From Phycisphaerales bacterium (lineage in GTDB: Bacteria; Planctomycetota; Phycisphaerae; Phycisphaerales; SM1A02): DNA of 64,000 bases. This document shows positions 11,019-32,185 of this stretch, piece after piece. The notes beneath the pieces were generated by a model, which had not been told where the DNA came from, did not search any database, and saw nothing but the letters and a program-made list of their open reading frames with translations. The stretch spans positions 434,001 through 498,000 of the forward strand of contig JAQWNP010000006.1 of NCBI GenBank assembly GCA_029268515.1, given 5' to 3'. Positions within the stretch are counted from its first letter, which is position 1. Each line of letters starts with the position of its first letter. Position numbers and translations under genes: made by a program.

Positions 11019-12140
11019 TCAAAGTGTGTCACTTCTGGTATTGGGTTGGATCAACGCTATTTCAGCGGCCAGCCCAGGGCCAAACGCCAGCATGACGTAT
11101 GGCGCCTCTGATTTCTCAACAGCATGACTCCGACGAAGCTGATCTAGAATAAACAACACCGTTGGCGACGACATATTGCCATGTTGACTTAGAACGTCAT
11201 AGGACGGCGCCATCTGAGCATCAGATAGTTGAAGTGAATCTTTGACAGATTGCAATATAGCTGGGCCCCCTGGATGAACGGCCCATCCGCCAATGTCATT
11301 AATGGTAAGGCCGTGTGGCGCTAGCCAACTTGTTAACCAGCCAGGAAGATGCTTCTCAATGAGTTTTGGAACTTCACGATCAAGTGTCATTTCAAAACCA
11401 TGATCTCCAATGTGCCAAGACATGGCATCCTTCCCTGAAGACATGAGGTAGCTGCCTGTATCAATCAACCGCCAGCCAAGGCCGCCGCTCTTGCCTGAAC
11501 AAACAAGCGCACCGGCGCCATCTGCAAAGAGTGCATTGGCTACGACGCGCTGGGCATGCCATCGGTACGCGTAATGTAAGCTGCATAGCTCAACTGCGCA
11601 AAGAAGCACCACATCATCTGGATGCCTTTGGCAAAGACCATCAACCACTCGCAGGCCATTGATTGCTCCATGACATCCCATAAAGCCAATCGTCGATCTT
11701 GAGATGGTCTTTCTGAGGCCTAACTCTTCAATCAGAGCAATGTCTACCCCTGGCGCTGCGAACCCAGTACAAGAGACCATGACAAGATGCGCCACATCAT
11801 CTGGAGAGATTTCCGCTTGAGCTAAAGCCCGTTTGGACGCAGCGAAAGCAAGTGCTGGGGCTTCTTTGAGATACCGCGCCATCCGATCGCCTGTCGTAGG
11901 GCCGCCATCATGTCTATCTGAAGCTTGGGTGTAGAAGTCCATCTCACCAAATGCTTCAGGACCATCTCGAAAGAGGACACTGCCCCGCAAATCAATTTTT
12001 GTGCCTTCGAAGACACTAGACACAAACTCATCCTGTCTCGCGGTCAAGCTTGACATTGACTTAGCCAACGCTGCCAATCGAGTTTGCCCTATTGATACTT
12101 CTGGAGCAGCAATACCCAAACCTCGTAAGTAGGTATTCAT
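11019..12140 (-). CDS. Type III polyketide synthase (chalcone/stilbene synthase-like)
   Basis: The 373-residue protein is a homodimeric-type ketosynthase that condenses a fatty acyl starter with malonyl-CoA to pyrones, resorcinols or related phenolics. The catalytic triad is visible: Cys156 in GFMGCHG, His289 in WAVHPGG and Asn322 in HGNMSSPT. The CTGFAAPGVD segment is also typical. The ATG at 12140 overlaps the stop of the flavoprotein gene as ATGA, showing translational coupling, and GGAG precedes it. Together with the flavoprotein and methyltransferase upstream it forms an operon resembling the Streptomyces srs logic (PKS, hydroxylase, methyltransferase). The product is unknown. Confidence 0.9.
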   Translation of the reverse strand: MNTYLRGLGIAAPEVSIGQTRLAALAKSMSSLTARQDEFVSSVFEGTKIDLRGSVLFRDGPEAFGEMDFYTQASDRHDGGPTTGDRMARYLKEAPALAFAASKRALAQAEISPDDVAHLVMVSCTGFAAPGVDIALIEELGLRKTISRSTIGFMGCHGAINGLRVVDGLCQRHPDDVVLLCAVELCSLHYAYRWHAQRVVANALFADGAGALVCSGKSGGLGWRLIDTGSYLMSSGKDAMSWHIGDHGFEMTLDREVPKLIEKHLPGWLTSWLAPHGLTINDIGGWAVHPGGPAILQSVKDSLQLSDAQMAPSYDVLSQHGNMSSPTVLFILDQLRRSHAVEKSEAPYVMLAFGPGLAAEIALIQPNTRSDTL

Positions 12141-13345
12141 GCAACACTCCAAGGTTTAGAGTAGCTTTTGTTGATTTTTACTTTGGGCCGACCCACGCGT
12201 CGAATCAAGTAGCCGCTGCTCCGCGGCATGGTGATCATCGCACAAGCAAGTGAGGACGCCAACCAAGGCTTCCGCAGGACATGCTTTGTTACTCGGCACA
12301 CACGTTGGCGCCGAGCGATATTCCGGCGATATGTCTTTTTCCACCATCTCTCAATAGTCGCATCCCAGTGCTCACCAGTGGATTCTGATACTGCTTGGAT
12401 GGCGAGGGCCGCCGCAAATGACCAGCTCATGCCTTCGCCGGTGAAAGGTTCGACATAACCCGCCGCATCACCTAACACAAGCATGCGGTTTGCCGCAATT
12501 GTTGGTCGGCGCCGCGAGAGTTGCGGCGTACCCCGCCAAGTGACTGTATCAATTTCACCCATCTCAGAAAAACCTGCCTCACGAGCAATCTTTGTAATTG
12601 CCTGGGAAGCGCCGCCCGAAGACTTCACAAACATCGGATTGATTGCCGCTGCCACACTCCATTTACCATGCTCGACTTGCACGATCCCAAAATAGCCCTC
12701 GCGTCCAACCGACATATGAATAGTTTGTAAATCTGCTTGGCAGTCGTGGCTTTCTAGGATTGAAGAAACACCTATATAAGAGCTATTGGAAACCTCAACA
12801 CCAGCGCAGTTGGTCGTCGCTAGGCTTCTTCCATTAAGTCCATCGGCAACGAGAACTAAGCCAGCCTCAAGTGTGACTGTTCCAGAGCGCGATCGCAACT
12901 CAACTTGTCGTGATCGGTCGCTTGATTGGCCAACGGTAGCGGTCACCCCTTGCAGAAGATCGGCGCCGGATCGGCAGGCGTGATCAACAAGATGAACATC
13001 TAATGATTCACGAGAGACACCTCGCCCCGGCACCAAGTTCATTTTTGGACTTCGTTTTCCACAGTAAATTTTTAGACTACGAGTCAGTGGCGCATCCATT
13101 GAGATCGCAGGATCTGCAATACCTAACTGAGCCATACTCGATAAGGCTGCCGCATTAAGGCAACCACCGCAAACTTTGTGTCGAGGAAAAGATGATCGGT
13201 CAACCAATAGGGCGCGACAACCCTTACTTGCCAGACCTGCCGCGGCAGAAGCCCCAGCAATACCGGCACCAATGACAATGACATCCCAGCGGGAATTTAC
13301 AGCATTGTTCAATGAGATGGTGTCTGTAATTAAAGGTAACGACAT
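12137..13345 (-). CDS. FAD-dependent oxidoreductase/hydroxylase of the PKS operon
   Basis: The 402-residue protein has an N-terminal FAD-binding GAGIAG motif (residues 26-31), the FPRHKVCGGCL element of geranylgeranyl-reductase-like flavoproteins, and the second FAD motif GDAAGYVEPFTGEG at 292-305. The family includes aromatic hydroxylases and polyprenyl or lipid reductases. Its place between a methyltransferase and a type III PKS suggests it hydroxylates or oxidises the polyketide ring, possibly to a quinone. AGAGAGAT precedes the ATG. The stop overlaps the PKS start by four bases. Reduction of an alkyl chain is an alternative role. Confidence 0.82.
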   Translation of the reverse strand: MSLPLITDTISLNNAVNSRWDVIVIGAGIAGASAAAGLASKGCRALLVDRSSFPRHKVCGGCLNAAALSSMAQLGIADPAISMDAPLTRSLKIYCGKRSPKMNLVPGRGVSRESLDVHLVDHACRSGADLLQGVTATVGQSSDRSRQVELRSRSGTVTLEAGLVLVADGLNGRSLATTNCAGVEVSNSSYIGVSSILESHDCQADLQTIHMSVGREGYFGIVQVEHGKWSVAAAINPMFVKSSGGASQAITKIAREAGFSEMGEIDTVTWRGTPQLSRRRPTIAANRMLVLGDAAGYVEPFTGEGMSWSFAAALAIQAVSESTGEHWDATIERWWKKTYRRNIARRQRVCRVTKHVLRKPWLASSLACAMITMPRSSGYLIRRVGRPKVKINKSYSKPWSVA

Positions 13346-13361
13346 TAAAATGATCTCTCTG

Positions 13362-14051
13362 TCACGGCTTGCTTGTCAATTGCCAACGAAAAGGTCGGCA
13401 ACGCCTCACTTGCACATTTTTTAAACCAGCCTCTCTCGCCATATCACTCGCTTCTTGCTTCGTGTAAGCAGCGCGCACTGATCGTGGCGCATCCGTATGA
13501 ACAATCGGTGATCTTGTGAGCAGTTGAGAAGCCGCAAGAGCAGCACAATAACCGAACACGGATCGTTCGAGATCATTGACTAGTGTAAGGCCAGAAGCAG
13601 CATCTCCCATACGACGGAGCACTGCCTGGGCTTGATCTCGATCGAGATGGTGCAAAAAGAGACTTGAGGTCACGATCTGGAATTGGTTTGGAATATCTTC
13701 TTTGCATACGTCCAGCACAAATGTACTGATTGAGAGATCAAACGTATCAGCTCGCTGTTGCGCCCATTCCAAAGCTCGCTCACTAATATCACATACGGTC
13801 AACTCTATTGTGACGCCAAATTGCCTCGCAATCTTCAAAACCTCAATTGGTACATCTGCGCCACCCGTCGCAATATCCAACATCTTCACTTTGTCACCAG
13901 GGTTCACATGCTGTTGTAGCTCTCGCCATATCTCTTTGGCGGTGCCACTAATCTGATTGATGCGTGCAAGCCCTTTCAGCGCGCGCTCATGTGATTCCGC
14001 TTTTAGCGCGGGATCATCCATCAACTCAGCCTGTCGATACTGGCGAATCAA
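13362..14051 (-). CDS. Class I SAM-dependent methyltransferase of the PKS operon
   Basis: The 229-residue protein carries the SAM-binding motif I MLDIATGGADVP (about 57-68), an acidic strand-2 end (VCDIS) and the post-motif segment SSLFLHHLDRDQA. Its N-terminus (ELMDDPALKAESHERAL) resembles methyltransferases found beside planctomycete type III PKS genes. I use a TTG start at 14051 because TAAGG lies 8 bases upstream; starting at the Met11 codon would cut the conserved N-terminal helix. Sixteen bases separate it from the flavoprotein gene. It likely O- or C-methylates the polyketide product. It differs from the isoprenylcysteine-methyltransferase-like enzyme of other phenolic lipid operons. 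Confidence 0.8.
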   Translation of the reverse strand: MIRQYRQAELMDDPALKAESHERALKGLARINQISGTAKEIWRELQQHVNPGDKVKMLDIATGGADVPIEVLKIARQFGVTIELTVCDISERALEWAQQRADTFDLSISTFVLDVCKEDIPNQFQIVTSSLFLHHLDRDQAQAVLRRMGDAASGLTLVNDLERSVFGYCAALAASQLLTRSPIVHTDAPRSVRAAYTKQEASDMAREAGLKNVQVRRCRPFRWQLTSKP

Positions 14052-14087: not shown

Positions 14088-15473
14088 TCAAGCAGGAACA
14101 ACCTGCTCTGTTTGTGGATCCCAACGTAAGGCTTGCCCTGTTCGATATGACTCGACTGCCATCTTGATTGCGACCATTGTTGAGCAGCCAAGATCAACAT
14201 TACAAGCGGGCTGGCACTGCCCACGTATGGCACCCAAGAAAGCCCCCATGTGATCCGGTCTAGATTCGGCTGCAATCTCAAATGTTGCCTGGCCTTCAGC
14301 AGGCTCTGGATATTCTTTACCGTTTTCATCCTTGACCATTTTGTGTTCAAGTAGATCATCATTGGCCTTACGAAACTCCGGCCACCAGGTGCGCTGCTCT
14401 GACAATGAAAGCGCTTCATTAAAATCCATCGATCCGTACTGTCCATGAATCTGAACGGGAACATTCGTGTCGTTGGTCATCACACTGACCAACATGATCG
14501 TATGCTCGCCGGGATACTCCGCCATCATGAAAAAGTTGTCAGGTATATCACGGTCATCTTTCTCTAGATAACGACCACCAGCAGCAACAACCCGTGTTGG
14601 ATACGCGCCATTGGGACCATTAACCGCCAATAGTAATGGTGCCAACTTGTGATAGAGCAGGTCTGTGGCAAGTCCTCCGTTATATGCCCAGTACTTTCGG
14701 AACCGGAAAAAGTGATCCGCATTCCAGGGAATCTTCTCGGCCAGATTGTGCTCGTGACCAAGCCATTGATCCCACCAAACATAACCATCCTCTGTACCGC
14801 CCGGACCTGCATCGGGATCGATATGCCAGTTGAACTGACCACCTCTTGAGTTCCGGCAATAGCTCCCCTGACTCCATGTCACTTTACCGATGCGGCCATC
14901 TGCAATCGCTTTGCTGGCCCGCCAGTACCGATCGTCACTGGTTCCTTGCGGCCCAACTTGCAGAACTCGGCCGGTACGCTTGACTGCATCTCGGCACTCG
15001 ATCGCCTGAGCAGTCGTCAGTGACAGCGGTTTTTCAACGTATACATCTTTGCCCGACTCCATTGCCTCAATCGCAATCTTGGTGTGCCAATGATCTGGTG
15101 TCGCAATCAACACGGCATCAATATCGGAATCATCAAGAAGATAGCGATAGTCCATGGTGCCGCGATCGCTCGGATTGTCGGTCACTTTCAAGGCACTATT
15201 AAGCCGGCGTCGGTAAACATCACAAACGCGGCCAACGACAACATTGTCGGCGTCCTTGCGAGACATGAGGTTTCGCAGGTGGCCATGACCCATTCCACCT
15301 GTACCAACCACCCCTATATTGATCTTGTCATTCTTTGACTGACGTGGCTTCTGGTTGGCGTTCGTGCCTGGCTGATCCTGGGCTAAACTCTTCGATGACA
15401 GAACTGTGGCCGCAGAGGTTGCTGCTGCTGCTCCAAGAAATGTCCGACGGCTCAAATCGCCTTTGCTAGACAT
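14088..15473 (-). CDS. Tat-exported Gfo/Idh/MocA-family oxidoreductase
   Basis: The 461-residue protein begins with a twin-arginine signal (SRRTFLG, residues 8-14) and an alanine-rich hydrophobic stretch, ending near SLAQD. The mature part has the NAD(P)-binding GTGGMGHG motif (57-64), the TPDHWH element and the catalytic signature VEKPLS (EKP at 147-149), then a long C-terminal domain typical of planctomycete paralogues. Tat export implies it leaves the cytoplasm folded with bound NAD(P). The substrate is probably a sugar or glycoside. AAGGAGATTCAAG precedes the ATG. It lies 36 bases upstream of the methyltransferase, so it could be cotranscribed with the PKS genes, though a role there is not obvious. 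Confidence 0.88.
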   Translation of the reverse strand: MSSKGDLSRRTFLGAAAATSAATVLSSKSLAQDQPGTNANQKPRQSKNDKINIGVVGTGGMGHGHLRNLMSRKDADNVVVGRVCDVYRRRLNSALKVTDNPSDRGTMDYRYLLDDSDIDAVLIATPDHWHTKIAIEAMESGKDVYVEKPLSLTTAQAIECRDAVKRTGRVLQVGPQGTSDDRYWRASKAIADGRIGKVTWSQGSYCRNSRGGQFNWHIDPDAGPGGTEDGYVWWDQWLGHEHNLAEKIPWNADHFFRFRKYWAYNGGLATDLLYHKLAPLLLAVNGPNGAYPTRVVAAGGRYLEKDDRDIPDNFFMMAEYPGEHTIMLVSVMTNDTNVPVQIHGQYGSMDFNEALSLSEQRTWWPEFRKANDDLLEHKMVKDENGKEYPEPAEGQATFEIAAESRPDHMGAFLGAIRGQCQPACNVDLGCSTMVAIKMAVESYRTGQALRWDPQTEQVVPA

Positions 15474-15542: not shown

Positions 15543-16526
15543 CTACCTCACGAAAGGCTCGCTCGGCGTTGAGAAGATCACAAGTCTTCCACCAAGGGCT
15601 TCAATAAGACAAATGGTTCGCTCTGGGCCCAGCACACTCAATGTGGAGGCTAAGGCATCAGCTGTTGCAGCGTCATCCGCCACAACCGTGACTTGTGGGG
15701 CGTTAACGAGCGCTTGTCCAGTTCGAGGATCAACAATGTGTGAATATCGGCGATCACCCTTGCTTAGATACTGGTGCTTATCCGAGCTGGTAGCGATCCC
15801 ACAATCCGTGAGTTCAAATTTCGTGAAGGCACTGCCAGAAGTATCAGGCAACTTAATCATCCAACCTGCTCGCCCTGGTGGTGCAGCGCCAATGGCAAGA
15901 TCTCCACCCACATCAACCATGGCCTGATCGAGGCCACATTGTGCAATTGCCAGTAACACCTGATCTGCCGCATAACCCTTGCCAATGCCACCAAGATCCA
16001 GTTGTGTGCCAGGGTTTAGCAAAGCGATTGAATTAAGATCCTCGCTCAATGCAATATTCTTGTATCCCGCTGATTGCACCGCCTTGTCTATGGCTTCTCT
16101 TTCCGGAACCTCCCCGTGCTGACGAGCCTGACGCCATATGGCGACAATTGAGCCCGCCGCCGGATCAAATGCCCCCTGCGATAGGTGCGCAATCTCGAGG
16201 CTTCGCAGGAGTATGGCGCGGAGATCTGCCTTCATGGGCATCTCTCTCTGCGCTGCCTCTCTATTGATTTTGCTCAAATGACTTGTGGCCAGATAGTCGC
16301 TTAATTCCCCATCCAACGACTCAAGACGTGCAAAACCTTGAATTGCCGCATGTTTGGCTTGTTCAGAATCGGCACAAAACAGCGTGATACCCACCCGACA
16401 ACCCATTATGATCTTGTGATAGGAGCTTTTTTGGGGCCCAGAGCCTAATGAATGACATCCAGCACAGATCAGCAGGACGGCACCTGCGATCACCGGTACG
16501 CTATTTCTTGGAGAGAGTTGTCTCAT
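15543..16526 (-). CDS. apbE: FAD:protein FMN transferase, lipoprotein form
   Basis: The 327-residue protein has a lipoprotein signal with the candidate lipid cysteine at residue 24 (ICAGC). It shows ApbE hallmarks: FDPAAGSIVAIWRQ, the flavin-binding DLGGIGKGYAADQ, the DVGGDLAIG strand and HIVDPRTGQ. ApbE moves FMN from FAD onto Thr/Ser of exported flavoproteins such as Rnf, Nqr or reductase subunits. No obvious flavinylation partner is in the window. The start codon overlaps that of the divergent SUMF1-fold gene by two bases, so promoter and ribosome site must lie inside the neighbour's coding DNA. Only this start keeps the signal peptide. Confidence 0.88.
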   Translation of the reverse strand: MRQLSPRNSVPVIAGAVLLICAGCHSLGSGPQKSSYHKIIMGCRVGITLFCADSEQAKHAAIQGFARLESLDGELSDYLATSHLSKINREAAQREMPMKADLRAILLRSLEIAHLSQGAFDPAAGSIVAIWRQARQHGEVPEREAIDKAVQSAGYKNIALSEDLNSIALLNPGTQLDLGGIGKGYAADQVLLAIAQCGLDQAMVDVGGDLAIGAAPPGRAGWMIKLPDTSGSAFTKFELTDCGIATSSDKHQYLSKGDRRYSHIVDPRTGQALVNAPQVTVVADDAATADALASTLSVLGPERTICLIEALGGRLVIFSTPSEPFVR

Positions 16527-17349
16527 GAAATTAATCTGGAGCTCATCCTATCTGGCTGCCTGCTCATGTGGGGCGGTATCACTATTGGCCTCTTGCCAGC
16601 CCGCCGTGCCTCGCCATCAGGGATCCACGGCCAAGCAACTCCACCAAACAACCAATGAGTCTAGGGACTTTACCCAACAGATTGCAGGTACCACGCTCTC
16701 AATTCAGATGATTGCTGTGACCACTGGGAATCAAGATGCTTCGCAAACGATGCCTGCATTCTGGATTCAAGCCAAAGAGGTGACATGGGATCTCTACGAT
16801 ACCTTTGTCTATGAGCTCGATGAGCCTGGTAACCCTGCGGAAGCAGATGGAATGACAAGACCATCCAAGCCATATGTCACATTCGATCGAGGTTGGGGTC
16901 ATGCAGGCTACCCAGCACTCTCTATGTCAGCCAAGAACGCAGAAGCCTTTTGCGCGTGGCTTTCAGTCAAAACCGATCGCCACTATCAGATACCGACGCA
17001 AGCACAATGGACTCGAGCTTGCGAGCTCAGTCTCATCGCAGAAGAAACTTTACAGAGCCATGCATGGTTTAAATCCAACGCAAATGGAACAACACATCCT
17101 GTTGGAGAAAAGTTAAAGAGCCAAATAGGCACTTATGACATGTGTGGTAATGTCGCCGAATGGGTGACTACATCAAACGGACCTGCACTCATGGGTGGTT
17201 CATATCGAGATGTCGAAAATCCAATCGGATGTGCCGTAGTGCAAGTGCCTGTCCCCGATTGGAATGACAGCGATCCCCAAATTCCAAAGAGTCAGTGGTG
17301 GCTTGCAGATGCTCCTTTTGCCGGGCTTCGAGTCGTATGTGTTGATTAA
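16525..17349 (+). CDS. SUMF1-fold (formylglycine-generating-enzyme-like) lipoprotein
   Basis: The 274-residue protein starts with a classic lipobox LASC (Cys24). The rest is a SUMF1/FGE-sulfatase domain: KEVTWDLYDTFV, the YPALSMSAKNAEAFCAWLS segment, RHYQIPTQAQWTRAC and the signature CGNVAEWV, ending AGLRVVCVD. The active-site cysteine pair of true formylglycine-generating enzymes is not evident, so I read it as a non-catalytic or ligand-binding member. GGAGAGAG precedes the ATG. It leads a tight plus-strand run; the next gene starts 11 bases after its stop, whose TAA lies within the next ribosome site. It may help anchor or chaperone the exported oxidoreductases; that is speculation. Confidence 0.8.
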   Translation: MKLIWSSSYLAACSCGAVSLLASCQPAVPRHQGSTAKQLHQTTNESRDFTQQIAGTTLSIQMIAVTTGNQDASQTMPAFWIQAKEVTWDLYDTFVYELDEPGNPAEADGMTRPSKPYVTFDRGWGHAGYPALSMSAKNAEAFCAWLSVKTDRHYQIPTQAQWTRACELSLIAEETLQSHAWFKSNANGTTHPVGEKLKSQIGTYDMCGNVAEWVTTSNGPALMGGSYRDVENPIGCAVVQVPVPDWNDSDPQIPKSQWWLADAPFAGLRVVCVD

Positions 17350-17360
17350 GGAAAAAGAGA

Positions 17361-18677
17361 ATGTCGAAAAACGTAAGTACCGAAACAGCAGATTCAGTCG
17401 AAACAAATCACGGTGTATCGCGCCGCGACTTTGTTAAGACCTCATCAGCAGTTGCTGCTGCTTCAGCGATCATCGCCAGCCCTCTCGCATATGCGCGGGG
17501 CTCTGACACTATTAAGGTAGGTGTCATTGGCTGTGGTGGACGAGGAACTGGTGCCGCGGGACAAGCTCTCTCAGCTGATGACGGTGTCGTCATTTGGTCG
17601 ATGGGTGATGCTTTCCCAGATCGGCTTGAACGCAGCAAAAAGAACCTTGTTGAGCACGCAAATGACCGTGTTAAGGTACCTGCCGAACGCAGCTTTACTG
17701 GTTTTGACGCCTATAAGAACGTCATTGACAGTGGTGTTGATGTTGTCATATTGGCCACGCCCCCTCATTTCAGGCCCGAACACTTAGCCGCATCAGTTAA
17801 TGCTGGTAAGCATGTCTTTTGCGAAAAACCGATGGCTGTTGATGGCCCGGGCGTACGCAGTGTCATCGACTCTGTCCAGAAAGCAAAAGACAACAACACA
17901 AACTTGATGTCGGGCTTCTGCTGGCGGTATAGCCTTCCCGAAAGAGAGACATATCGTCGTATTCATGATGGCGCTATTGGTGATGTGCAGTGCGTACATA
18001 CTACTTATCACACTGGAACACTTGGCAAGCAAGCGCGAAAGCCGGAATGGTCAGATACTGAGTGGCAGATGCGGAACTGGTGGCACTTTAATTGGCTCTC
18101 AGGCGATCACATTGTTGAACAATCATGCCATAGTGTCGACAAAATAAATTGGGCCATGCAAAATCAAACTCCACTTCGCGCCACTGGACTGGGGGGACGT
18201 GAGGTTCGCGAAGGACCAGAGTCAGGAAATGTGTTTGACCACTTCGCGGTCATTTATGAGTATCCCAGTGGCGCCAGATGCTTCAATACTTGTAGACAGA
18301 TGCCCCGCTGCTCAAACGACAACTCTGACTATATCTACGGCTCAAAAGGTACTTGCATGGTCAATGGCTGGGCGCCTAAACATGTTATTACTGGTGAAAA
18401 TGAGTGGAGCTACGATGGCCCGACGGCCAACATGTATCAGGTTGAACACAATGAACTCATGAAAGCCATCCGTGCTGGTGATGTCATTAATGATGGCGAC
18501 TTCATGACACAGAGCACAATGATGTCAATCATTGGCCGAATGGCGGCCTATACCGGCCAAACCGTTGAGTGGGATGACGCCATGAATTCAACCGAGCGCC
18601 TCGGGCCAACCGAATATGGGTGGAACGAACTCGAAGTTGTGCCTGTTCCAGTGCCTGGCCGAAGCAGAGTTGTATAG
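17361..18677 (+). CDS. Tat-exported Gfo/Idh/MocA-family oxidoreductase
   Basis: The 438-residue protein has a twin-arginine signal (SRRDFVK at 20-26). The Rossmann motif VIGCGGRGTG lies at about 55-64, the TPPHFRPEH element near 133-141 and the signature EKP at 155-157. A conserved WLSGDHIVEQSCHSVD segment gives the C-terminal domain its likely catalytic His/Asp. It should be an NAD(P)-dependent sugar oxidoreductase acting outside the cytoplasm. AAGGA, placed 8 bases upstream, overlaps the previous stop. It is clearly paralogous to the protein at 19651-20949: same length, same signal type and near-identical motif blocks. Each is followed by a TIM-barrel gene. Confidence 0.9.
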   Translation: MSKNVSTETADSVETNHGVSRRDFVKTSSAVAAASAIIASPLAYARGSDTIKVGVIGCGGRGTGAAGQALSADDGVVIWSMGDAFPDRLERSKKNLVEHANDRVKVPAERSFTGFDAYKNVIDSGVDVVILATPPHFRPEHLAASVNAGKHVFCEKPMAVDGPGVRSVIDSVQKAKDNNTNLMSGFCWRYSLPERETYRRIHDGAIGDVQCVHTTYHTGTLGKQARKPEWSDTEWQMRNWWHFNWLSGDHIVEQSCHSVDKINWAMQNQTPLRATGLGGREVREGPESGNVFDHFAVIYEYPSGARCFNTCRQMPRCSNDNSDYIYGSKGTCMVNGWAPKHVITGENEWSYDGPTANMYQVEHNELMKAIRAGDVINDGDFMTQSTMMSIIGRMAAYTGQTVEWDDAMNSTERLGPTEYGWNELEVVPVPVPGRSRVV

Positions 18678-18688
18678 GAACTAATTTG

Positions 18689-19630
18689 ATGGGTGAAAAT
18701 CATAATCATCGTAGTGGTTGGTCGCGACGAAGTTTCCTTGAATTGACAGGTGCGGCTGCAGCGATTGGTGTCACTGCTGGCCTAGGAACGGGTTCGCAAG
18801 ATAACTCCACGACAGAACAAGGGCCGAGACGGAACATGAAGAAGTCACTTAAATACGGCATGGTTCAAGTAGACGGCAGTGTGGAAGATAAGTTTCGTTT
18901 ACTTAAAGAGATTGGCTATGACGGTGTTGAACTTGATAGCCCCAGCGGACTTGATGAAGATGAGGTGCTTCGCGCTCGAGATGCAACTGGACTACTCATC
19001 CCCGGCGTAGTTGACTCTGTGCACTGGCAGAAAACACTTTCTGACCCAGATCCCAATGTGCGCGGCGAAGGCCGCCGTGGACTTGAAACAGCGATCAATC
19101 AGTGCGTTCGCTATGGGGGCACGACAGTGCTGTTGGTTCCAGCTGTCGTCAACAAGAAGGTCACTTACGACCAAGCCTATGAACGTTCACAAGATGAGAT
19201 TCGCAAAGTACTGCCACTGTGTGATGACACTGGCATCAAGATTGCCATTGAGAATGTCTGGAACAATTTCTTATTGAGTCCTATGGAAGCAGCTCGGTAC
19301 GTCGATGAATTTGAGAATCCTAATATCGGCTGGTACTTCGACGTCGGCAATATTGTCAACTATGGATATCCAGAACAGTGGATCCGCATACTCGGGCCAC
19401 GTGTTTTCAAGTTGGATATCAAAGAGTTCAGTCGCCAAAAGCGCAATGATGAGGGTCTTTGGAAAGGCTTCCAAGTTAAACTTCTCGAAGGAGACTGTGA
19501 TTGGCCCGCTGTCATGCAAGCAATTGATGACATTGGTTACGACGGCTGGGGCAGTGCAGAGGTTGGAGGCGGCGACGAAGCCCGATTACGTGATATCGCA
19601 GAGCGTATGGACCGCATCTATGCGAGCTGA
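18689..19630 (+). CDS. Tat-exported sugar isomerase/epimerase-like TIM barrel
   Basis: The 313-residue protein begins with a twin-arginine signal (SRRSFLEL at 12-19) and then an AP-endonuclease-family-2 TIM barrel. Metal-binding positions of xylose-isomerase-like enzymes are visible: GYDGVELD near the second strand, IAIENVW (Glu), GWYFDVGN (Asp), FKLDIKEF and GSAEVGGG (Glu) at the last strand. Such proteins isomerise or epimerise sugars or keto-sugars with a divalent metal. I use ATG 18689 because GGAA precedes it and the longer frame overlaps the upstream gene. It starts 11 bases after the oxidoreductase stop, so both are surely cotranscribed and probably act on consecutive intermediates. 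Confidence 0.85.
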   Translation: MGENHNHRSGWSRRSFLELTGAAAAIGVTAGLGTGSQDNSTTEQGPRRNMKKSLKYGMVQVDGSVEDKFRLLKEIGYDGVELDSPSGLDEDEVLRARDATGLLIPGVVDSVHWQKTLSDPDPNVRGEGRRGLETAINQCVRYGGTTVLLVPAVVNKKVTYDQAYERSQDEIRKVLPLCDDTGIKIAIENVWNNFLLSPMEAARYVDEFENPNIGWYFDVGNIVNYGYPEQWIRILGPRVFKLDIKEFSRQKRNDEGLWKGFQVKLLEGDCDWPAVMQAIDDIGYDGWGSAEVGGGDEARLRDIAERMDRIYAS

Positions 19631-19650
19631 GTAGCGCAAGGAGATTAAAG

Positions 19651-20949
19651 ATGCCTAGGTCCCATGACAATGCTCAAGGGAATGTCACGCGCCGCGACTT
19701 TGTGCGCTACTCAACACTAAGCGCATCGGCACTTGCGGTTGCCAACATGCCCGCACTCGCAAGACAAAATAGCTCAACATCTAGGCCAATTAATGTTGGT
19801 CTTATCGGCTGTGGTGGGCGTGGTACAGGTGCTGCGCACAATGCACTCGAAGCCCACGAGGATGTGCATGTTGTTGCAATGGCAGACGCCTTTCCTGATC
19901 GACTGAACAACAGCCGCAAATCGATTAGTGAACACGGAAGTGGCCGAGGTAAGGTCAAGGATGCAAGCTGTTACACAGGATTTGATGCCTACACCAAACT
20001 ACTTAAAGATGATGTTGATGTGGTGATCTTGGCAACGCCGCCACACTTTCGGCCGATCCACTTTGAAGCGGCAGTTGATGCTGGTAAACATGTCTTTATG
20101 GAGAAGCCTGCCGCCGTCGATCCTTCGGGAATACGTCAAGTGATTCGGGCTGCTGAAAAGGCCAGGGGCGATGAACTCAGTGTGGTCGCCGGCACACAGC
20201 GCCGTCATGAGCGCTGTTATCTCGATGCCATGGAACGTATTAACCGCGGTGAGATTGGTGAGATCACCAGTGGTCGGGTTTACTGGAATATGGGTGGCCT
20301 TTGGGTGCGACAGCCCCAAGAAGATTGGTCAGAGATGGAGTGGCAACTTCGCAACTGGCTCTACTTCACATGGCTCTCTGGCGATCACATTGTTGAACAG
20401 CATGTCCATAATCTTGATGTCGCTAATTGGGTCATGGGCAGCCAGCCTGTTCGCTGTATGGGCATGGGTGGCCGCGAGGTCCGGACCGGTGACGAGTATG
20501 GGCACATATTTGATCACTTTGCGGTTGATTATGAATATCCCAATGGCCGCCATGTGATGAGTATGTGCCGCCAGACAGATGGATGTGCTTCGCGCGTTGA
20601 AGAGGCTTTTCATGGAACTGAGGGGCGTTGTTTGCTCCGCTCTGGATTTGCTCAACTCGCTGGCAATACACCGTGGCAATTCACTGGCAAAAACACCAAC
20701 CCTTATGTTCAGGAGCACCGAGATCTGATTGCCTCAATCAGAGGGCAAGGACCTTATCTCAATGAAGGGCAACGTGTGGCGGAGTCAACACTGACCGCCA
20801 TTATGGGTCGAATGTCTGCTTACACCGGCAAAGAGGTGTCGTGGGATCAAGCAATGAATTCACAACTCGATCTCTCGCCCAAAGCGTATGAATTTGGAGA
20901 CATTGAAGTCCCGCCCGTCGCAATACCTGGTCGTACCCCACTGGTTTAA
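19651..20949 (+). CDS. Tat-exported Gfo/Idh/MocA-family oxidoreductase, second paralogue
   Basis: The 432-residue protein has a twin-arginine signal (TRRDFVRY at 13-20), the Rossmann motif LIGCGGRGTG (51-60), TPPHFRP (129-135) and the EKP signature at 151-153. The WLSGDHIVEQHVHNLD segment matches the equivalent block of the paralogue upstream. AAGGAG precedes the ATG. The two oxidoreductases probably arose by tandem duplication with their TIM-barrel partners, then diverged: this one has a different N-terminal linker and a GTQRRHERCY segment where the other has GFCWRYSLPE. That suggests different sugars or different positions on one sugar. Confidence 0.9.
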   Translation: MPRSHDNAQGNVTRRDFVRYSTLSASALAVANMPALARQNSSTSRPINVGLIGCGGRGTGAAHNALEAHEDVHVVAMADAFPDRLNNSRKSISEHGSGRGKVKDASCYTGFDAYTKLLKDDVDVVILATPPHFRPIHFEAAVDAGKHVFMEKPAAVDPSGIRQVIRAAEKARGDELSVVAGTQRRHERCYLDAMERINRGEIGEITSGRVYWNMGGLWVRQPQEDWSEMEWQLRNWLYFTWLSGDHIVEQHVHNLDVANWVMGSQPVRCMGMGGREVRTGDEYGHIFDHFAVDYEYPNGRHVMSMCRQTDGCASRVEEAFHGTEGRCLLRSGFAQLAGNTPWQFTGKNTNPYVQEHRDLIASIRGQGPYLNEGQRVAESTLTAIMGRMSAYTGKEVSWDQAMNSQLDLSPKAYEFGDIEVPPVAIPGRTPLV

Positions 20950-20964
20950 CAAAAGGCTTTCAAG

Positions 20965-21906
20965 ATGCATAGAAGAGACTTTCTCACAACATCGATTGGC
21001 TCTTCAGCCGCAGTGGTGCTTGCAAGCACTGCACTAGGAACAACAGCACAACAAGATGCAGAAAAGCCATCGGTACCCAATCGCCAGTTTCAACTGAGGT
21101 ATGCGCCCCACCTAGGCATGTTTAGTAAGCACGGCGGCGATGCAACTGGGCAAATTGACTTTATGTCTGCAGAAGGTTTCACGGCCTTTGAGGACAACAG
21201 CATGCGCCATCGAGGCCGTGCGGAACAAGATGCCATTGCCAAAGCCCTTGATCGCAACAATATGTTGATGGGTGTCTTGGTTGCTAATGATGGTGGTTTT
21301 GGCCCACCTCTGATTACCAGTGGCAACAAGGATATTGAAGATCGATTTTGCGCCAATGTGCAAGAAACGATCGAGGTCGCAAAACGATTGAATGGTAAGT
21401 ATGCCACTGTTGTTTGTGGAACGATAGACCCGCAACTTGATCCAGATAAACAACAAGCCAACGTGGTACGAGCGCTCAAGCGTGCAAGCGCCTTGTGTGA
21501 GCCACATGGACTGATTTTATGCTGTGAACCACTCAATTGGCGAGATCATCCAAATCAGTACCTGCGTTATACGCCACACTCTTATGAAGTCATGAAGCAA
21601 GTCGATAGCCCGTCATGCAAGATTTTGTTTGACATCTATCACCAACAAGCCAGTGAGGGAAATCTCATCGAACACATGGATCAGTGCTGGGATGAAATCG
21701 CTTACATTCAAGTGGGCGATAATCCAGGACGGCGAGAGCCAGGTACTGGTGAGATCAACTATAGAAACGTCTTTAAGTTTCTCGCTGAGAAGGGTTATAC
21801 GGGTCCCGTTGGTATGGAACACGGCAATGCCAAGCCCGGCAAAGAAGGTGAGCGGGCCGTTATCGATGCGTACGTTCTGGCGGACAACTTCTCAGTTGCA
21901 AAGTAA
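20965..21906 (+). CDS. Tat-exported hydroxypyruvate-isomerase-like TIM barrel
   Basis: The 313-residue protein has a very short n-region before the twin arginines (MHRRDFLTTS). The mature part is a xylose-isomerase-like TIM barrel of the hydroxypyruvate isomerase (Hyi) group. Visible metal and acid/base segments are ILCCEPLNWRDHP (Glu), KILFDIYHQQ (Asp, His), YIQVGDNPGRREPGTGEINY and GPVGMEHG (Glu). Cytosolic Hyi interconverts hydroxypyruvate and tartronate semialdehyde, but an exported form next to sugar oxidoreductases more likely isomerises a keto-sugar. It ends the plus-strand run, and its stop is only 15 bases from the stop of the convergent dockerin-rich gene. Confidence 0.82.
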   Translation: MHRRDFLTTSIGSSAAVVLASTALGTTAQQDAEKPSVPNRQFQLRYAPHLGMFSKHGGDATGQIDFMSAEGFTAFEDNSMRHRGRAEQDAIAKALDRNNMLMGVLVANDGGFGPPLITSGNKDIEDRFCANVQETIEVAKRLNGKYATVVCGTIDPQLDPDKQQANVVRALKRASALCEPHGLILCCEPLNWRDHPNQYLRYTPHSYEVMKQVDSPSCKILFDIYHQQASEGNLIEHMDQCWDEIAYIQVGDNPGRREPGTGEINYRNVFKFLAEKGYTGPVGMEHGNAKPGKEGERAVIDAYVLADNFSVAK

Positions 21907-21921
21907 CCCTTTACACTTTTA

Positions 21922-24171
21922 CTATTCAGGACAGTGACCGCACCCATATCCTGGGCAGTTATCAAGTTCGCCATCTAAGGCGTGCCTGAACACCATTTGA
22001 TATGACAGTTCATCTGTGCAATTGACAACGCCATCGGCATTCACATCAAAGGCGGGGTCGCATTCTCCAGGTATGTCGCAGAAATTTTCTCGAATGATCG
22101 CGAGATCACCACACTCAAAATCGACGCCGTCACCATTAAGATCGAGCGCAACCGTACCGTTGATCAGGCCGTCGATCCCAAGTCCAGCGAAGTCAAAAAC
22201 AAACCAGGTGTCGTCCAAATCAACGACTCCATCGCATTCAAAATCAAAGTCGCCGCTGCACGGGTCGCATCCAATATTGTCTTGAACGATCCAAAGATCT
22301 GAACAAGTCACTACCCCGTCTGTGTTGACGTCAGCTACAACAGATAATGGTCCCATATTTGAACGAATGGCATTCAGGTCGCTCTGATCCACAACGCCAT
22401 CTTGTGTCACATCAAAGCGAGGGCAGTTACACCCTATATATTCTTGCACCCAAGCATAGTCTTCTTTGTTAATTTGCTCGTCGTGATTAACATCACCACG
22501 GCAAACATAGCCATTTGGTAAATCCGCTGGTGCATTTGGATCTGTTAAGAAACATTCCGCTGGATCATGTGATGGTAGATTCGCATTAGTGCCAGCAATA
22601 GGATTGCGCACACGTGAATCAGTATTGCTGCGCACAATCTTGGCGTCGGTCATATCAATCACACCGTTGCCATCTACATCAGGATCGATGAACACAATCT
22701 GGGAGGGATCGCGTCCAATGTGTGCAATCACAAGTGCGAAGTCCACCTCATCAACGGACTGATCATGATTAACATCCGGAGACAAGACTCGAACCCGAGC
22801 GAGCGGATCACCAACTGGCGCCCCTTCCGAACCAAGTATGCCAATTCCAGACAGAGACGCTTCACCCCACGTCAGTCCGTGGTTGTATAGATTATCCGCC
22901 ATATACGGAAGCTTCGCCAAATTGACGCCACCGTTGACATAACCGTAAGTGAATGAACCGCCGGCCCGACTAATCCAGTCTAGAACATCACCGTGGCCAG
23001 ACGTTCCAGCGCCACGCATCTGCCTTCCGTTGTATGACTCGAGACTGATAAACAACCCTGCATCATGAGCGATGTAATCTTCTACATAAGCCCTGTCAAC
23101 ACATTCAACACCAAGACACTGATTGCCTGACTGCTCCTCACAGCAGAGGACCAATGAGTTTCGGCCTAAGCCAAAGTGAATAAGCTCTGGATAATCAATG
23201 TACGCGAGCTCTTCCGTACTTATTCTCGGGCAGTCTTCAATGCTCGATGATGTACACGAACAGTCATTCCACGTCAGCCCACTTAGTTTTGCGCCATGTA
23301 GAAACGCAACAGTCTGATCTTGATAAACGTACCAGTTACTTTCGTACATCAGTTGGGCTGCATCTGCGCCTACATTCACCATTGCGTCATATGGCCAACC
23401 GCACTCCGCGCCGGGACCATCAACGACCGTTGTCACCTGAAGTTTATTCACTTCTAGGTCGAGACTCCGTGTAATAAGCGCTCGGACCATATCGATCTTT
23501 GCTTCACCGTTTGGCCCCCAAGTTGCATCGAGTCGACTGGCGAAATAAACAGGTTTACCGCAGGCTCTATTGCGAATTGTTGCGACCGGGATACCACGTG
23601 ATTTTGCATATGGGTTCTTGTATTGCTCCTTGGTGCCATCAATCGAGAGCTTCATAAGAGCGCCCTCAAGACTGCTCCACACACCATCAGACTGACCATG
23701 GAAACTACCTGCTGGCTGAAAATTCTCGCTCACCAACGCTGGAAGGCCGCGGCTTGTCACAAACCCAAGTATCTCAACTGGCGCGGTCTCAATAAATGCC
23801 GACAAAGGCTGACGAATGTGATCGAGATAAGCTTGTGGTGTCATGTAGAAGTTTGTCACCGCACCTGGAGGTGGGTTCTTCCAATCATCATCTGACCAAT
23901 CAGACGTATCTGTATACTCAAGATTGATATCAAACGATCGAACAGCGGGACGCGCTTCCAGATAAGCCTCGTGTGCTGCCGCAGAAAAGCTGTTTTGACT
24001 GTTGTATAAAAAGACGACTTGATTCGCCTTAACGGAAGCCTTGGTTTGATTTTGAAACTGTGAGCTCACCTCACTAGGGGAGTCGGCATCGCTATTCTGT
24101 TCTATACAGATGGTCGTGTTTAACACAACGAGCCCAGAAATCGCAGCCATCATTGGTCTTGTCTTTTGCAT
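21922..24171 (-). CDS. Exported TIGR03790-like protein with eight dockerin-type EF-hands
   Basis: The 749-residue protein has a signal-like N-terminus, then about 430 residues resembling the TIGR03790 family: VVFLYNSQNSFSAAAHEAYLE, GFVTSRGLPALV and a later GHGDVLDW segment. The last 290 residues hold eight calcium-loop repeats of the DVNxDGxVDxxDL type, equal to about four dockerin modules, ending in a cysteine-rich tail. Dockerins normally bind cohesins, but none is visible here, so they may instead fix the protein to the planctomycete surface. GGAAT precedes the ATG. A hairpin lies 36 bases upstream. It shares strand with the MFS gene. Confidence 0.7.
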   Translation of the reverse strand: MQKTRPMMAAISGLVVLNTTICIEQNSDADSPSEVSSQFQNQTKASVKANQVVFLYNSQNSFSAAAHEAYLEARPAVRSFDINLEYTDTSDWSDDDWKNPPPGAVTNFYMTPQAYLDHIRQPLSAFIETAPVEILGFVTSRGLPALVSENFQPAGSFHGQSDGVWSSLEGALMKLSIDGTKEQYKNPYAKSRGIPVATIRNRACGKPVYFASRLDATWGPNGEAKIDMVRALITRSLDLEVNKLQVTTVVDGPGAECGWPYDAMVNVGADAAQLMYESNWYVYQDQTVAFLHGAKLSGLTWNDCSCTSSSIEDCPRISTEELAYIDYPELIHFGLGRNSLVLCCEEQSGNQCLGVECVDRAYVEDYIAHDAGLFISLESYNGRQMRGAGTSGHGDVLDWISRAGGSFTYGYVNGGVNLAKLPYMADNLYNHGLTWGEASLSGIGILGSEGAPVGDPLARVRVLSPDVNHDQSVDEVDFALVIAHIGRDPSQIVFIDPDVDGNGVIDMTDAKIVRSNTDSRVRNPIAGTNANLPSHDPAECFLTDPNAPADLPNGYVCRGDVNHDEQINKEDYAWVQEYIGCNCPRFDVTQDGVVDQSDLNAIRSNMGPLSVVADVNTDGVVTCSDLWIVQDNIGCDPCSGDFDFECDGVVDLDDTWFVFDFAGLGIDGLINGTVALDLNGDGVDFECGDLAIIRENFCDIPGECDPAFDVNADGVVNCTDELSYQMVFRHALDGELDNCPGYGCGHCPE

Positions 24172-24339: not shown

Positions 24340-25806
24340 TTATGTGGTTATTGATCTTTTTTCACGGATACGGGCCATCGCAGCCTTCCCTGGATAAAAC
24401 ACGGCCAAAAAGGCCAGGCAAACGACTGCTGTGTACATCGGAATAGCAAAAAGACCCTGCCAGTCCTTAACACCATCCTCGCTGGTGTAGATCGTCCCAA
24501 TCTTTCCGGCTACATAACTACCAACCACGATGCCAATACCGACAATGATGAGATTAAAGAGGTTTTGGGCACTTGCTTTTACATCTCTTGTGCATTCTTC
24601 ATCAACGATCATGAACGCCACAAAGATGAAACAACCGAAGCATAAGCCGTGCAATGCAACGCCAGTAATCAGCGTCACCATGACGGGCACGCCCACAGAT
24701 ACAGATAACCAGTCCACATAAGCAAACAGGAACATCCGTGCCGCATAAGCGACCAGCCCTATTCCTAATAGTGTCTTCCTGGAAAATCGCTTGGCGACAA
24801 GTGGGATCAACATCAACACGATCACCTCAGCGATCTGGCCAATGGTCATGAGCCCGCCGCCGCCAACACCAAACACGCCATTGATCGCGTCATTAACCTC
24901 GCCTGCTTGTGCCTGGTAGTTGCCCAAGAAGACCGCTGTAAACTGAAAATAGAACTGGTGAATCATGCTTACTGGAATAGCGATCAGGAACAAGATCAAA
25001 AGTGGATTCCGCGATGCCTCTTTGATTGCTTCGCCAGTGGCAAAGGACTCCTGTCCACGCTGTGGGGGTGTCCGTGGCAGCGTTAAACAGTAAACACCCA
25101 TAATGAATCCAAGAATGGCTGCAACGTAAAAGGCGTTATACATACCCTCCGCCTGCGCCTTATGAAGAGCCTCTGATGCCGTTTGTAGCGTGGCTTCAAG
25201 GCCTACGCGCGCTGACTCACTTGCATTTTCAACCGCAAGCTTCGCAGCTTTAACTGTTTCAACAAGATCTGCTGGAGAGTAAGCGTGATACAACCACTGG
25301 CCAATGCCGATGCCCACAGCAATCCAGCCAATGGTTCCCCATAATCGAACCCAGCCAAACTGGCGGTCACGGTCTGACAGATGATGGAAGCTCAGTGAGT
25401 TTGTGAGTGCTAATGTGGGCGAATAGACAATTGAGTAAGCCAATGCAAACCCTAAGAATCCCCAGAATGAAGTGATTTGAACCAGAATCAACATTAAGAC
25501 AGCGCCGATTAAGTGACTCACGCCAAGAAAGCGTTCTGTGTTGAACCAGCGGTCAGCTATCTGTCCTGCGATGAACGGGCCAAACAAGGCGCCAACACCG
25601 CCCGCCATGAACATATAACCGATTTCTGCATCATCAAAGCCTCGAACCTTACTCAAAAAGGTGTATAGCAACGGCAACCAAGCGCCCCAGATGGCGTATT
25701 GAAGCAGCATCATGAAAGATAATCTGAGGAAAGTGACGCCACCAAACACTGGCTTATCGCTTCCCGCTTGTGTTGCTATATTTGAACCAGGCTGATCCAT
25801 GTTCAT
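24340..25806 (-). CDS. MFS transporter of the nucleoside:H+ symporter group
   Basis: The 488-residue membrane protein has about 12 hydrophobic segments and the start pattern FLRLSFMMLLQYAIWGAWLPLL found in the NupG/XapB (Nuc_H_symport) branch of the major facilitator superfamily. An Ala/Glu-rich cytosolic stretch (VKAAKLAVENASESARVGLE) lies in the central part. Members import nucleosides by proton symport, but planctomycete copies are often next to sugar oxidoreductase genes, so a sugar or keto-sugar substrate is my inference. I chose ATG 25806, preceded by AGAGAGAT; the longer frame adds a hydrophilic 34-residue leader that overlaps the ThuA gene. It follows the ThuA gene by 58 bases. Confidence 0.82.
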   Translation of the reverse strand: MNMDQPGSNIATQAGSDKPVFGGVTFLRLSFMMLLQYAIWGAWLPLLYTFLSKVRGFDDAEIGYMFMAGGVGALFGPFIAGQIADRWFNTERFLGVSHLIGAVLMLILVQITSFWGFLGFALAYSIVYSPTLALTNSLSFHHLSDRDRQFGWVRLWGTIGWIAVGIGIGQWLYHAYSPADLVETVKAAKLAVENASESARVGLEATLQTASEALHKAQAEGMYNAFYVAAILGFIMGVYCLTLPRTPPQRGQESFATGEAIKEASRNPLLILFLIAIPVSMIHQFYFQFTAVFLGNYQAQAGEVNDAINGVFGVGGGGLMTIGQIAEVIVLMLIPLVAKRFSRKTLLGIGLVAYAARMFLFAYVDWLSVSVGVPVMVTLITGVALHGLCFGCFIFVAFMIVDEECTRDVKASAQNLFNLIIVGIGIVVGSYVAGKIGTIYTSEDGVKDWQGLFAIPMYTAVVCLAFLAVFYPGKAAMARIREKRSITT

Positions 25807-25864
25807 ATGTGATCTCTCTAATAGATTAATCAACAGTCGTGAAACATTGAGATAAGTCGAATGA

Positions 25865-27652: not shown

Positions 27653-27671
27653 GGATTTGTTGCCTTGGCAA

Positions 27672-28901
27672 TCAATCGCTTCGGTCTGATGATTCTTGGC
27701 TAGACGACTGTGTGGTAGCACTTTCGGTTGAGGTGAGGTCTCGTATTTGGAGATCTTTCCAAATGATCTCATTCCCAGCATGTTGAGATTGAAGAGCAAT
27801 GTGCCCCTCATCGAAAAGAGCTAAGTTCATATCGATCATTGGCAGACCATTGATCCAGGTTTGAACATGATCGCCTTCTACTCGAATTCGATAGTCGAAC
27901 CAAGAGTTATCTTCAGTGAGCTTTACTTTTGGAAAGGCTTGATTCGTAATGGCGCCAGTAAACTCTTTTGCATCCTGATTATCAACCTCAGCTTCATATC
28001 CCACTGGCTCTTCATATTCCACTGGCCAATCGTCATTGTTCGAAAGCTTCGGCATCGTTCGAAAGTAGAGCCCCCCATTACCATTCTTGTTCACTTTTAC
28101 ATGAGCTCTGATTTCGAAATCGCCAAACTTTTTCTTTGTAAACAAATGGCCCGGACCATCTCGCCCAACCAGGTTGCCGTTTTCCACAACCCAACTCGCA
28201 TTCCCATCCTCAAACCAATTTGACAAATCATTGGTGACCAACGGCCTGAAACCACCGGGATCGGGGTCGGGTGATAAGTCTTTGATACGGATATTGCGAT
28301 AGCGAATCGGATCTCCGTGATCTTGCAACGCAATGTAGCCAGTCTTAAGTCGATGCTGCAATGCCATTGCTTGGCCTGTTCCGCGCCCATCGAGTTTTTC
28401 GTTCTTGTGAATATGTTTTCCATTAAGCCAAACATTAATCATATCTCCAGACAACACCATCCGGTACGTATTCCAGCTGTTTGGTTGGTTGAGCGCCATC
28501 TCATTTGGTGCAATGGCATCGTAGATGGCGCCACATGCACCAGGATATGGATCTTCACCAAAGGTGTCGTAGACCTGAACCTCCATACCACTGAAGGCCG
28601 GATTTTCGTTACTCGACGCACGCAGTGCCACACCCGAGTTGCCTTTGGGTGGAAGAAAGAAATCAAGTCGAAGATCGAAATCGCGATATTGCTTCTCGGT
28701 CCGGAGCCAGCCACCGCCCGCCGGTTTAACCAGTAGCTCACCATTCTCTACTGCCCATGCATTGACATTACCGGTCGGCGTCCATCCTGTCAGTGACACG
28801 CCATCAAACAGTGGCTCAAAACCTTTTTCTTGTTCATCGACTTGCAACACGTTTCCATGACTACCAAGAATGGATAGCGTTATAAAAAGTATTTCAAACA
28901 T
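27672..28901 (-). CDS. Exported protein with two DUF1080 (3-keto-disaccharide hydrolase) domains
   Basis: The 409-residue protein has a short signal peptide (MFEILFITLSILGS). Two DUF1080 / Pfam 3-keto-disaccharide hydrolase domains then lie in tandem. The first, about 30-210, runs from FEPLFDGVSLTGW to GYIALQDHGDPIRYRNIRIKDL. The second, about 215-395, runs from FRPLVTNDLSNW to GHIALQSQHAGNEIIWKDLQIRDL. The jelly-roll fold is concanavalin-like. Both carry the NSG/NGG strand (GNSGVALRA, GNGGLYFRT). The C-terminus is a Ser/Thr-rich tail. GGAG precedes the ATG. Cleavage of oxidised glycosides is the expected function; the double-domain form may bind longer substrates. Confidence 0.85.
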   Translation of the reverse strand: MFEILFITLSILGSHGNVLQVDEQEKGFEPLFDGVSLTGWTPTGNVNAWAVENGELLVKPAGGGWLRTEKQYRDFDLRLDFFLPPKGNSGVALRASSNENPAFSGMEVQVYDTFGEDPYPGACGAIYDAIAPNEMALNQPNSWNTYRMVLSGDMINVWLNGKHIHKNEKLDGRGTGQAMALQHRLKTGYIALQDHGDPIRYRNIRIKDLSPDPDPGGFRPLVTNDLSNWFEDGNASWVVENGNLVGRDGPGHLFTKKKFGDFEIRAHVKVNKNGNGGLYFRTMPKLSNNDDWPVEYEEPVGYEAEVDNQDAKEFTGAITNQAFPKVKLTEDNSWFDYRIRVEGDHVQTWINGLPMIDMNLALFDEGHIALQSQHAGNEIIWKDLQIRDLTSTESATTQSSSQESSDRSD

Positions 28902-28997
28902 GCCCTGAACTCCAGCGAACCAGTACTACTGTTATATAAATTGAAATTTAGCCACACGCATACATTGAGCGGTGGCAACCTATTCACAAATGATCAA

Positions 28998-32156: not shown

Positions 32157-32185
32157 CTCTCAATGAATAATGGTGAAATGTGAAA

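Follow-up and report, generated by a model that had tools for sequence, protein, structure and literature searches.

How exported oxidoreductases of the NAD-dependent Gfo/Idh/MocA type (Gfos), which are many in these bacteria, work without a free pool of nicotinamide adenine dinucleotide (NAD) is the question raised by a gene cassette of a Phycisphaerales bacterium. The window analysed, a stretch of 64,000 nucleotides, covers bases 434001–498000 of contig C6 in a 3.2-Mb genome. It carries a lipoprotein gene with the fold of formylglycine-generating enzyme (FGE), named SUMF, followed by two Gfo and two triosephosphate isomerase (TIM) barrel genes, all four with twin-arginine translocation (Tat) signals, and a divergent gene for ApbE, a flavin adenine dinucleotide (FAD):protein flavin mononucleotide (FMN) transferase. 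An earlier sequence-only reading had proposed a duplicated two-step keto-sugar module working outside the cytoplasm with bound NAD(P) in a closed redox cycle. The adjacent and conserved ApbE, for which a search of the genome turned up no known substrate, points to an outlet for electrons, either in place of such a cycle or alongside it. We tentatively propose an exported sugar-oxidation cassette whose electrons may be passed on by a carrier with covalently bound flavin, a proposal to which we give slightly less than an even chance. The features concerned are as follows.

14088–15473, minus strand: GfoC, Tat-signalled Gfo/Idh/MocA oxidoreductase with an RRTFL signal, downstream of ApbE on the same strand (PF01408, 80.1 bits)
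15543–16526, minus strand: ApbE lipoprotein, FAD:protein FMN transferase (PF02424, 214 bits; lipobox read by eye)
16525–17349, plus strand: SUMF, FGE-fold lipoprotein (PF03781, 64.7 bits against a cut-off of 23.3; lipobox read by eye)
17361–18677, plus strand: GfoA, Tat-signalled Gfo/Idh/MocA oxidoreductase of the A clade (PF01408, 47.0 bits)
18689–19630, plus strand: TIMA, Tat-signalled xylose-isomerase-like TIM barrel (PF01261, 132 bits when read from 18620)
19651–20949, plus strand: GfoB, Tat-signalled Gfo/Idh/MocA oxidoreductase of the B clade (PF01408, 52.7 bits)
20965–21906, plus strand: TIMB, Tat-signalled TIM barrel, hydroxypyruvate-isomerase-like (PF01261, 113 bits)
24340–25908, minus strand: MFS permease (Nuc_H_symport), the convergent downstream neighbour (PF03825, 301 bits)

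The five plus-strand genes at 16525–21906 follow one another in the order lipoprotein, Gfo, TIM barrel, Gfo, TIM barrel; 11, 11, 20 and 15 bases separate them, in accordance with the sequence-only reading. Their Pfam families are all over cut-off, namely PF03781 for SUMF, PF01408 (cut-off 24 bits, also exceeded by GfoC) with PF22725/PF02894 for GfoA and GfoB, and PF01261 for TIMA and TIMB. The start of TIMA is taken as the ATG at 18689; with the in-frame GTG at 18620 as start, the gene would overlap that of GfoA. The region first delimited leaves out the divergent ApbE and the Tat-signalled GfoC, both of the same neighbourhood, and a GfoC-like gene also stands beside ApbE in loci L001, L036 and L060. 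The divergent start codons of ApbE and SUMF overlap in one CATG at 16524–16527, so that the two genes leave no gap between them, and at least one promoter is necessarily inside the opposite gene.

Related loci were gathered by similarity to GfoA and GfoB, and the best 80 of at least 502 (L001–L080) were compared; the 56 of these with 2.5 kb or more of flank on either side were used for co-occurrence counts. ApbE is present in 29 of the 34 GfoA loci with SUMF and in none of the 22 without it, and the same ApbE and SUMF numbers were obtained by two tallies, one querying the surrounding 6 kb with single window proteins and the other applying profiles to whole loci. Since the loci are related and were chosen by similarity, these are counts rather than independent events, and the Fisher p of 3.8e-11, which ignores kinship, is not taken as a probability. 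The closest locus among the matches listed is L001, from an uncultured Phycisphaerae metagenome-assembled genome, with a GfoA 87% identical. In Phycisphaerae the order –ApbE, +SUMF, +GfoA, (+TIMA), +GfoB, +TIMB, –MFS recurs, and order and strand of SUMF–GfoA–(TIMA)–GfoB–TIMB are retained at about 60% GfoA identity. An MFS match is present in 24 of the 34 SUMF-bearing loci, and four Opitutae loci (L064, L069, L072 and L074) keep ApbE, SUMF and GfoA in a different order. Among the commonest genes outside the cassette are those for HSP20 proteins, a sigma factor, a pyrophosphatase and a chloride channel, and these unrelated families mark its limits. The cassette is found through Planctomycetes and some Verrucomicrobia. 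Across 41 related genomes, apbE is present in 32, singly in 21 of them, and FMN_bind in 8. Both apbE and SUMF, the latter counted by strong matches, occur in 30 genomes, and 22 of these have apbE no more than 6 kb from SUMF, among them 13 of the 21 single-apbE genomes.

Twin-arginine motifs are read directly in all four enzymes (SRRDFV in GfoA, SRRSFL in TIMA, TRRDFV in GfoB and HRRDFL in TIMB), in agreement with what had been claimed for them. Among the homologues of L001–L080, an RR/RK-x-hydrophobic motif precedes the Rossmann motif in 76 of 76 GfoA and 18 of 18 GfoB sequences, after rows with fewer than 30 residues upstream were dropped, and lies within the first 70 residues in 25 of 28 TIMA and 14 of 14 TIMB homologues. 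The background is 0 of 6 for GfoX/GfoD and 3 of 27 for MFS homologues. Extension of the count to further loci gives a like picture, some of the added genes being repeats. The motif is not due to chance because it is conserved across these homologues. TatC is also encoded in the genome, and so the cassette enzymes, Gfo and TIM alike, are predicted to be exported ready-folded.

ApbE is the sole PF02424 match in the genome. Its residues were placed by alignment to solved ApbE/Ftp structures, and the Ser-His-Asp catalytic triad described in the accessible part of PMC12052999 corresponds to S247, H263 and D290, which are conserved in 36, 35 and 35, respectively, of the 39 sequences aligned, three to four of the rest being gaps. 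According to the accessible part of PMC4767422, an aromatic residue at the flavin ring marks FAD-binding ApbEs as against the FAD-hydrolysing class. Y78 aligns with a Tyr in 4xdt and with an Asn in wild-type Treponema 4ifu, and this places the window protein in the FAD-binding class. In this column, which we take to be the class-setting site, the 39 aligned ApbEs have Tyr in 24, Trp in 12 and a gap in 3. A search of the genome, estimated to be 99.5% complete, gave no match to FMN_bind, DUF2271, NqrB/RnfD or DUF3570; as none of these known ApbE substrate families was found, the gene is an "orphan" apbE.

Of the 48 apbE places found, 23 are by SUMF (one a weak SUMF match), 8 in Gfo operons and 3 by TIM or GfoB; another 6 are near FMN_bind, 7 have none of these genes beside them and 1 is a contig-end fragment. 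A tree of 59 rows, consisting of 46 of these places, the window ApbE included, and 13 rows from other loci, was built by a quick search and rooted at the midpoint. The SUMF-linked rows fall inside a 42-row clade with a Shimodaira–Hasegawa-like approximate likelihood ratio (SH-aLRT) of 93, which also includes four rows by none of these genes, two by TIM and one near GfoB. A separate 6-row clade (SH-aLRT 100) contains four of the six FMN_bind-linked rows, the other two not being placed. By this tree, the SUMF-linked ApbEs are a lineage distinct from most FMN_bind-linked ones.

A further separate clade, of 8 rows with SH-aLRT 100, consists of ApbEs adjoining Tat-signalled Gfos. A second layout, Gfo–ApbE–Gfo, occurs in six genomes, and in four of them a neighbouring protein has hydrophobic stretches and one CxxCH; none was picked out in the other two, one of which has a short contig. 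In these four genomes (L151, L154, L156 and L166) the genes form a compact operon, Gfo–ApbE–Gfo followed by the small hydrophobic one-CxxCH protein, and two of the small proteins, when scanned, had no Pfam match. In two further genomes (L155 and L165) a seven-CxxCH protein matching cytochrome c7 models lies near ApbE and Tat-signalled Gfos, with a cytochrome b561 also nearby in L165. There is the possibility, a rather doubtful one, that the Tat-exported NAD-dependent Gfos have two ApbE lineages of their own, which flavinylate a putative envelope carrier that reoxidises protein-bound NADH outside the cytoplasm and feeds a membrane or haem chain.

The mechanism that we propose for the cassette would run as follows. 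Outside the cytoplasm, the Gfos would use NAD(H) that had crossed the membrane by the Tat route within the folded enzyme to oxidise, and maybe later reduce, a sugar or glycoside. The TIM barrels would eliminate, hydrate or epimerise the keto intermediate, and the convergent permease would take up the product. These steps of oxidation, rearrangement and uptake are suggested by analogy with BT2158 of Bacteroides and with the eliminase/hydratase set of Agrobacterium, and the sugar chemistry is proposed at the level of the superfamily. ApbE would attach FMN to a putative envelope protein, which would accept hydride from Gfo-bound NADH and hand it on to the membrane. Since such a carrier would reoxidise Gfo-bound NADH, NAD would need neither exchange nor a closed loop. 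This flavin outlet, to which the association of the genes points, is the least certain step.

Several observations weigh against an outlet of this kind. The flavinylation motif D-x-x-[ST]-G-A-[ST] is in none of 17 window proteins scanned, cassette included, and no Ser/Thr column of the GfoA alignment parts ApbE-linked from unlinked members, so that the flavin acceptor is missing. Pfam scans of 30 window proteins turned up no haem protein. GfoA and GfoB exceed no NCBIfam cut-off, save that of a TAT-signal domain model for GfoA, which leaves their substrate unassigned. Five of the 34 SUMF loci (L013, L017, L019, L026 and L076) have no nearby ApbE, and one locus group retains only SUMF–GfoA–MFS. 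In 8 of the 30 genomes with both genes apbE is away from SUMF, on another contig in each listed case; two of these eight apbE genes adjoin a TIM gene and one is near GfoB. A closed NAD cycle is also possible for the enzymes themselves.

Candidate acceptors were sought further afield. A genome-wide DNA pattern for the flavin motif gave 68 matches as against 40 for the reversed pattern, and 40 stretches around matches, chosen mainly for codons allowing Ser/Thr at both places, were read in frame. The motif is in frame in four open reading frames of at least 120 residues, presumably a MIP18-like protein and topoisomerase I, named from reading of the sequence, and two large frames (L124 and L143). 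None is a good candidate, the number is near chance by a rough estimate, and targets without the leading Asp would escape this search. Five of 101 GfoA homologues (L010, L013, L018, L019 and L021) have D[YF]ITG[AS]T; this was rejected as drift of the ordinary Gfo "GtkG" loop, there being no ApbE at these loci. A further one of the 68 matches, outside the 40 stretches read, lies in the window at 52213–55119 on the minus strand, where DTASGAS in an exported Chlam_PMP-type beta-helix protein formally fits the flavinylation motif.

As to the duplicated module of the sequence-only reading, the Gfo part and the TIM part fare differently. GfoA and GfoB share the motif blocks then quoted and are 45.6% identical over 425 columns, so the paralogy of the Gfos stands; TIMA and TIMB give no blastp match at 1e-3, and a duplication of the TIM barrels does not. 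The nearest NCBIfam of TIMA is L-ribulose-5-phosphate 3-epimerase (39.5 bits, below cut-off), that of TIMB is hydroxypyruvate isomerase TIGR03234 (134.6 bits, below the 353-bit cut-off), with structure matches to PDB 3ngf and 1k77, and the two are probably of separate origin within the superfamily. A Gfo tree of 123 rows was built by a quick search without bootstrap, and has a long outgroup branch; near-duplicate loci (L081, L082, L084, L085 and L089) and rows outside 370–520 residues were dropped. It places 86 rows in an A clade (SH-aLRT 91) and 30 in a B clade (SH-aLRT 88) apart from it, with one B-labelled row, L110, outside the B clade. The A clade also includes rows without GfoB from Planctomycetes, Verrucomicrobia and Acidobacteria bins. 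GfoB lies within 6 kb of GfoA in 21 of the 56 loci, 20 of these having ApbE, and is absent there in 35. Because the A clade is separate from the B clade and so many GfoA loci have no nearby GfoB, the split looks older than the spread of the cassette. Therefore, GfoA and GfoB are probably old paralogues, duplicated long ago, and the two pairs, whose TIM barrels belong to different subfamilies, are not the sister duplicates that had been supposed.

The alternative that survives best is a closed redox cycle, in which the keto-sugar formed by oxidation on GfoA would, once rearranged, be reduced by GfoB or by GfoA itself, with NAD(H) tightly bound; no outlet would be needed, and ApbE would be a bystander or serve another protein. 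Two Gfos and two TIM barrels resemble the dehydrogenase–eliminase–hydratase–reductase set in the accessible part of PMC10628242. The predicted structure of GfoA has a predicted local distance difference test score (pLDDT) of 89.6 and a predicted template modelling score of 0.86, and is confident only from about residue 50. Its nearest folds by Z are NAD-dependent sulfoquinovosidases (36.2), DgpA, YjhC and levoglucosan dehydrogenase, with glucose-fructose oxidoreductase (GFOR) about 2 Z lower, and Foldseek ranks YjhC first and GFOR sixth; the sulfoquinovosidases in particular are in line with a closed cycle, and the ranks are so close that they identify no substrate. In GFOR, the N-terminal arm comprises about 30 residues before the Rossmann fold. 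The Rossmann motif is at residue 53 in GfoA and 49 in GfoB and the RR at 21 and 14, so that the signal peptide takes up nearly the whole stretch before the fold, and by these positions and the GfoA model the mature proteins lack a GFOR-type arm, which argues against the cycle. Moreover, a bystander would not be expected to accompany the cassette as regularly as ApbE does, or to form so distinct a lineage, and some loci keep just SUMF–GfoA and the permease, although their genomes may have further Gfos at other places. On this evidence a closed cycle without an outlet seems unlikely, while still a serious contender.

In the Gfo active site, K156 of EKP and the downstream H257, which we take to be the catalytic residues, are invariant in a 40-sequence alignment, with Glu253 four residues before the His. 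GfoA H250, within SGDHIVEQ, is His in 29 of 29 rows linked to ApbE and SUMF, in 97% of 31 B rows and in 19% of 36 unlinked A rows, most unlinked A members having Gly or Phe. This pattern needs four changes on the tree, and a sign test on five pairs gives a median p of 1, the independent changes being too few.

It is improbable, by comparison, that the ApbE lineage modifies the cassette's own Gfo or SUMF through a non-canonical motif, tethering the nucleotide cofactor against loss outside the cytoplasm. The close tracking of SUMF by ApbE would fit this idea, as would the stretch W246–W259 of SUMF, near-invariant and of low confidence in a model with pLDDT 78 that matches the folds of Treponema variable protein 1, PvdO, FGE and EgtB. 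This C-terminal stretch holds DPQxPKSxWW, a motif of the family's own, whose Asp-to-Ser spacing is that of the flavin motif. As a flavin acceptor, however, DPQxPKS was rejected, being kept in 75 of 81 SUMF-profile matches, loci without ApbE included, with Gly for Ser in five of the 75; nor does GfoA offer a discriminating Ser/Thr.

A mere array of paralogues, in which the exported Gfos and TIM barrels serve pathways that have nothing to do with one another and are neighbours by chance, would suit relatives with up to 26 GfoA matches per genome and the nine Gfo domain matches in the window's own, yet is very improbable given the order and strand kept at about 60% GfoA identity between outside genes from unrelated families.

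Around the cassette, a large protein with dockerin type I repeats is directly convergent with TIMB (21922–24171, minus strand). A second sugar cluster at 24340–31159, also on the minus strand, encodes the permease, a ThuA protein with PKD and a weak CBM6 match, a PF06439 3-keto-disaccharide hydrolase, GfoD and a TIM barrel; its Gfo and TIM are without Tat signals, and parts of it also adjoin SUMF–GfoA in L019 and L026. Genes for a type III polyketide synthase, an FAD-dependent oxidoreductase and a methyltransferase cluster at 11019–14051 on the minus strand, the first two overlapping. Three proteins compared with PADLOC defence families gave no match.

Among known systems, FGE, PvdO and EgtB share the fold and PF03781 with SUMF. 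The active-site cysteines of human FGE are C336 and C341. In the alignment SUMF lacks this pair, having RDVENPIG after the GGSY segment, and differs further by its own C-terminal motif. A 2024 Nature paper reportedly describes an alternative glycan breakdown pathway. The 3-keto-glycoside genes of Bacteroides include BT2158, a periplasmic glycoside 3-dehydrogenase of the Gfo/Idh/MocA type (PMC11300592), and BT2157, a 3-ketotrehalose hydrolase of DUF1080/PF06439 (PMC9007349). The window likewise has PF06439 proteins, at 27672–28901 and 32180–34810; unlike the Bacteroides enzyme, GfoA, GfoB and GfoC score only 41.3, 49.9 and 107 bits with NF058561 (BT_2158_fam, glycoside 3-dehydrogenase; cut-off 750 bits), and the accessible parts of these two papers describe no ApbE or FGE-like lipoprotein. 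The GlycDH/OGE/HYD/Gfo set of Agrobacterium combines TIM-barrel isomerase-like enzymes, one beta-eliminating and one suggested to be a hydratase, with a Gfo reductase (PMC10628242). The likeness lies in sugar-phosphate-isomerase-like TIM barrels beside a Gfo; the difference is that no Tat-exported Gfo/TIM block with ApbE is described in the accessible part of that paper. Zymomonas GFOR has the Gfo fold and Tat signal in common with GfoA and GfoB but also the arm that they lack, and other Gfo enzymes outscore it by sequence and fold.

A literature search, subscription papers excluded, found no paper tying orphan ApbE lineages to exported Gfos: ApbE and Gfo are mentioned together in PMC3207994, incidentally to judge by its title, and no paper with ApbE was among the matches listed for ApbE with FGE terms. 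The word Gfo is absent from the main text of Meheust et al. 2021 (PMC8238504) and from its 2024 follow-up (PMC11334425). The former, in its accessible part, reports 670 genomes (4%) with ApbE and no recognised flavinylation substrate. The window ApbE is likewise without one and differs in having a defined, conserved set of partners, which supplies candidates for orphan ApbEs. The sugar module is a variant of a familiar type; what would surprise a specialist is the tie of orphan ApbE lineages to exported Gfos. A conserved and distinct FMN transferase lineage offers a concrete and testable answer to how exported Gfos dispense with a free NAD pool; if it is true, exported sugar dehydrogenases would here take a flavin-coupled, respiratory form, and partners would be named for some of the remaining orphan apbE genes.

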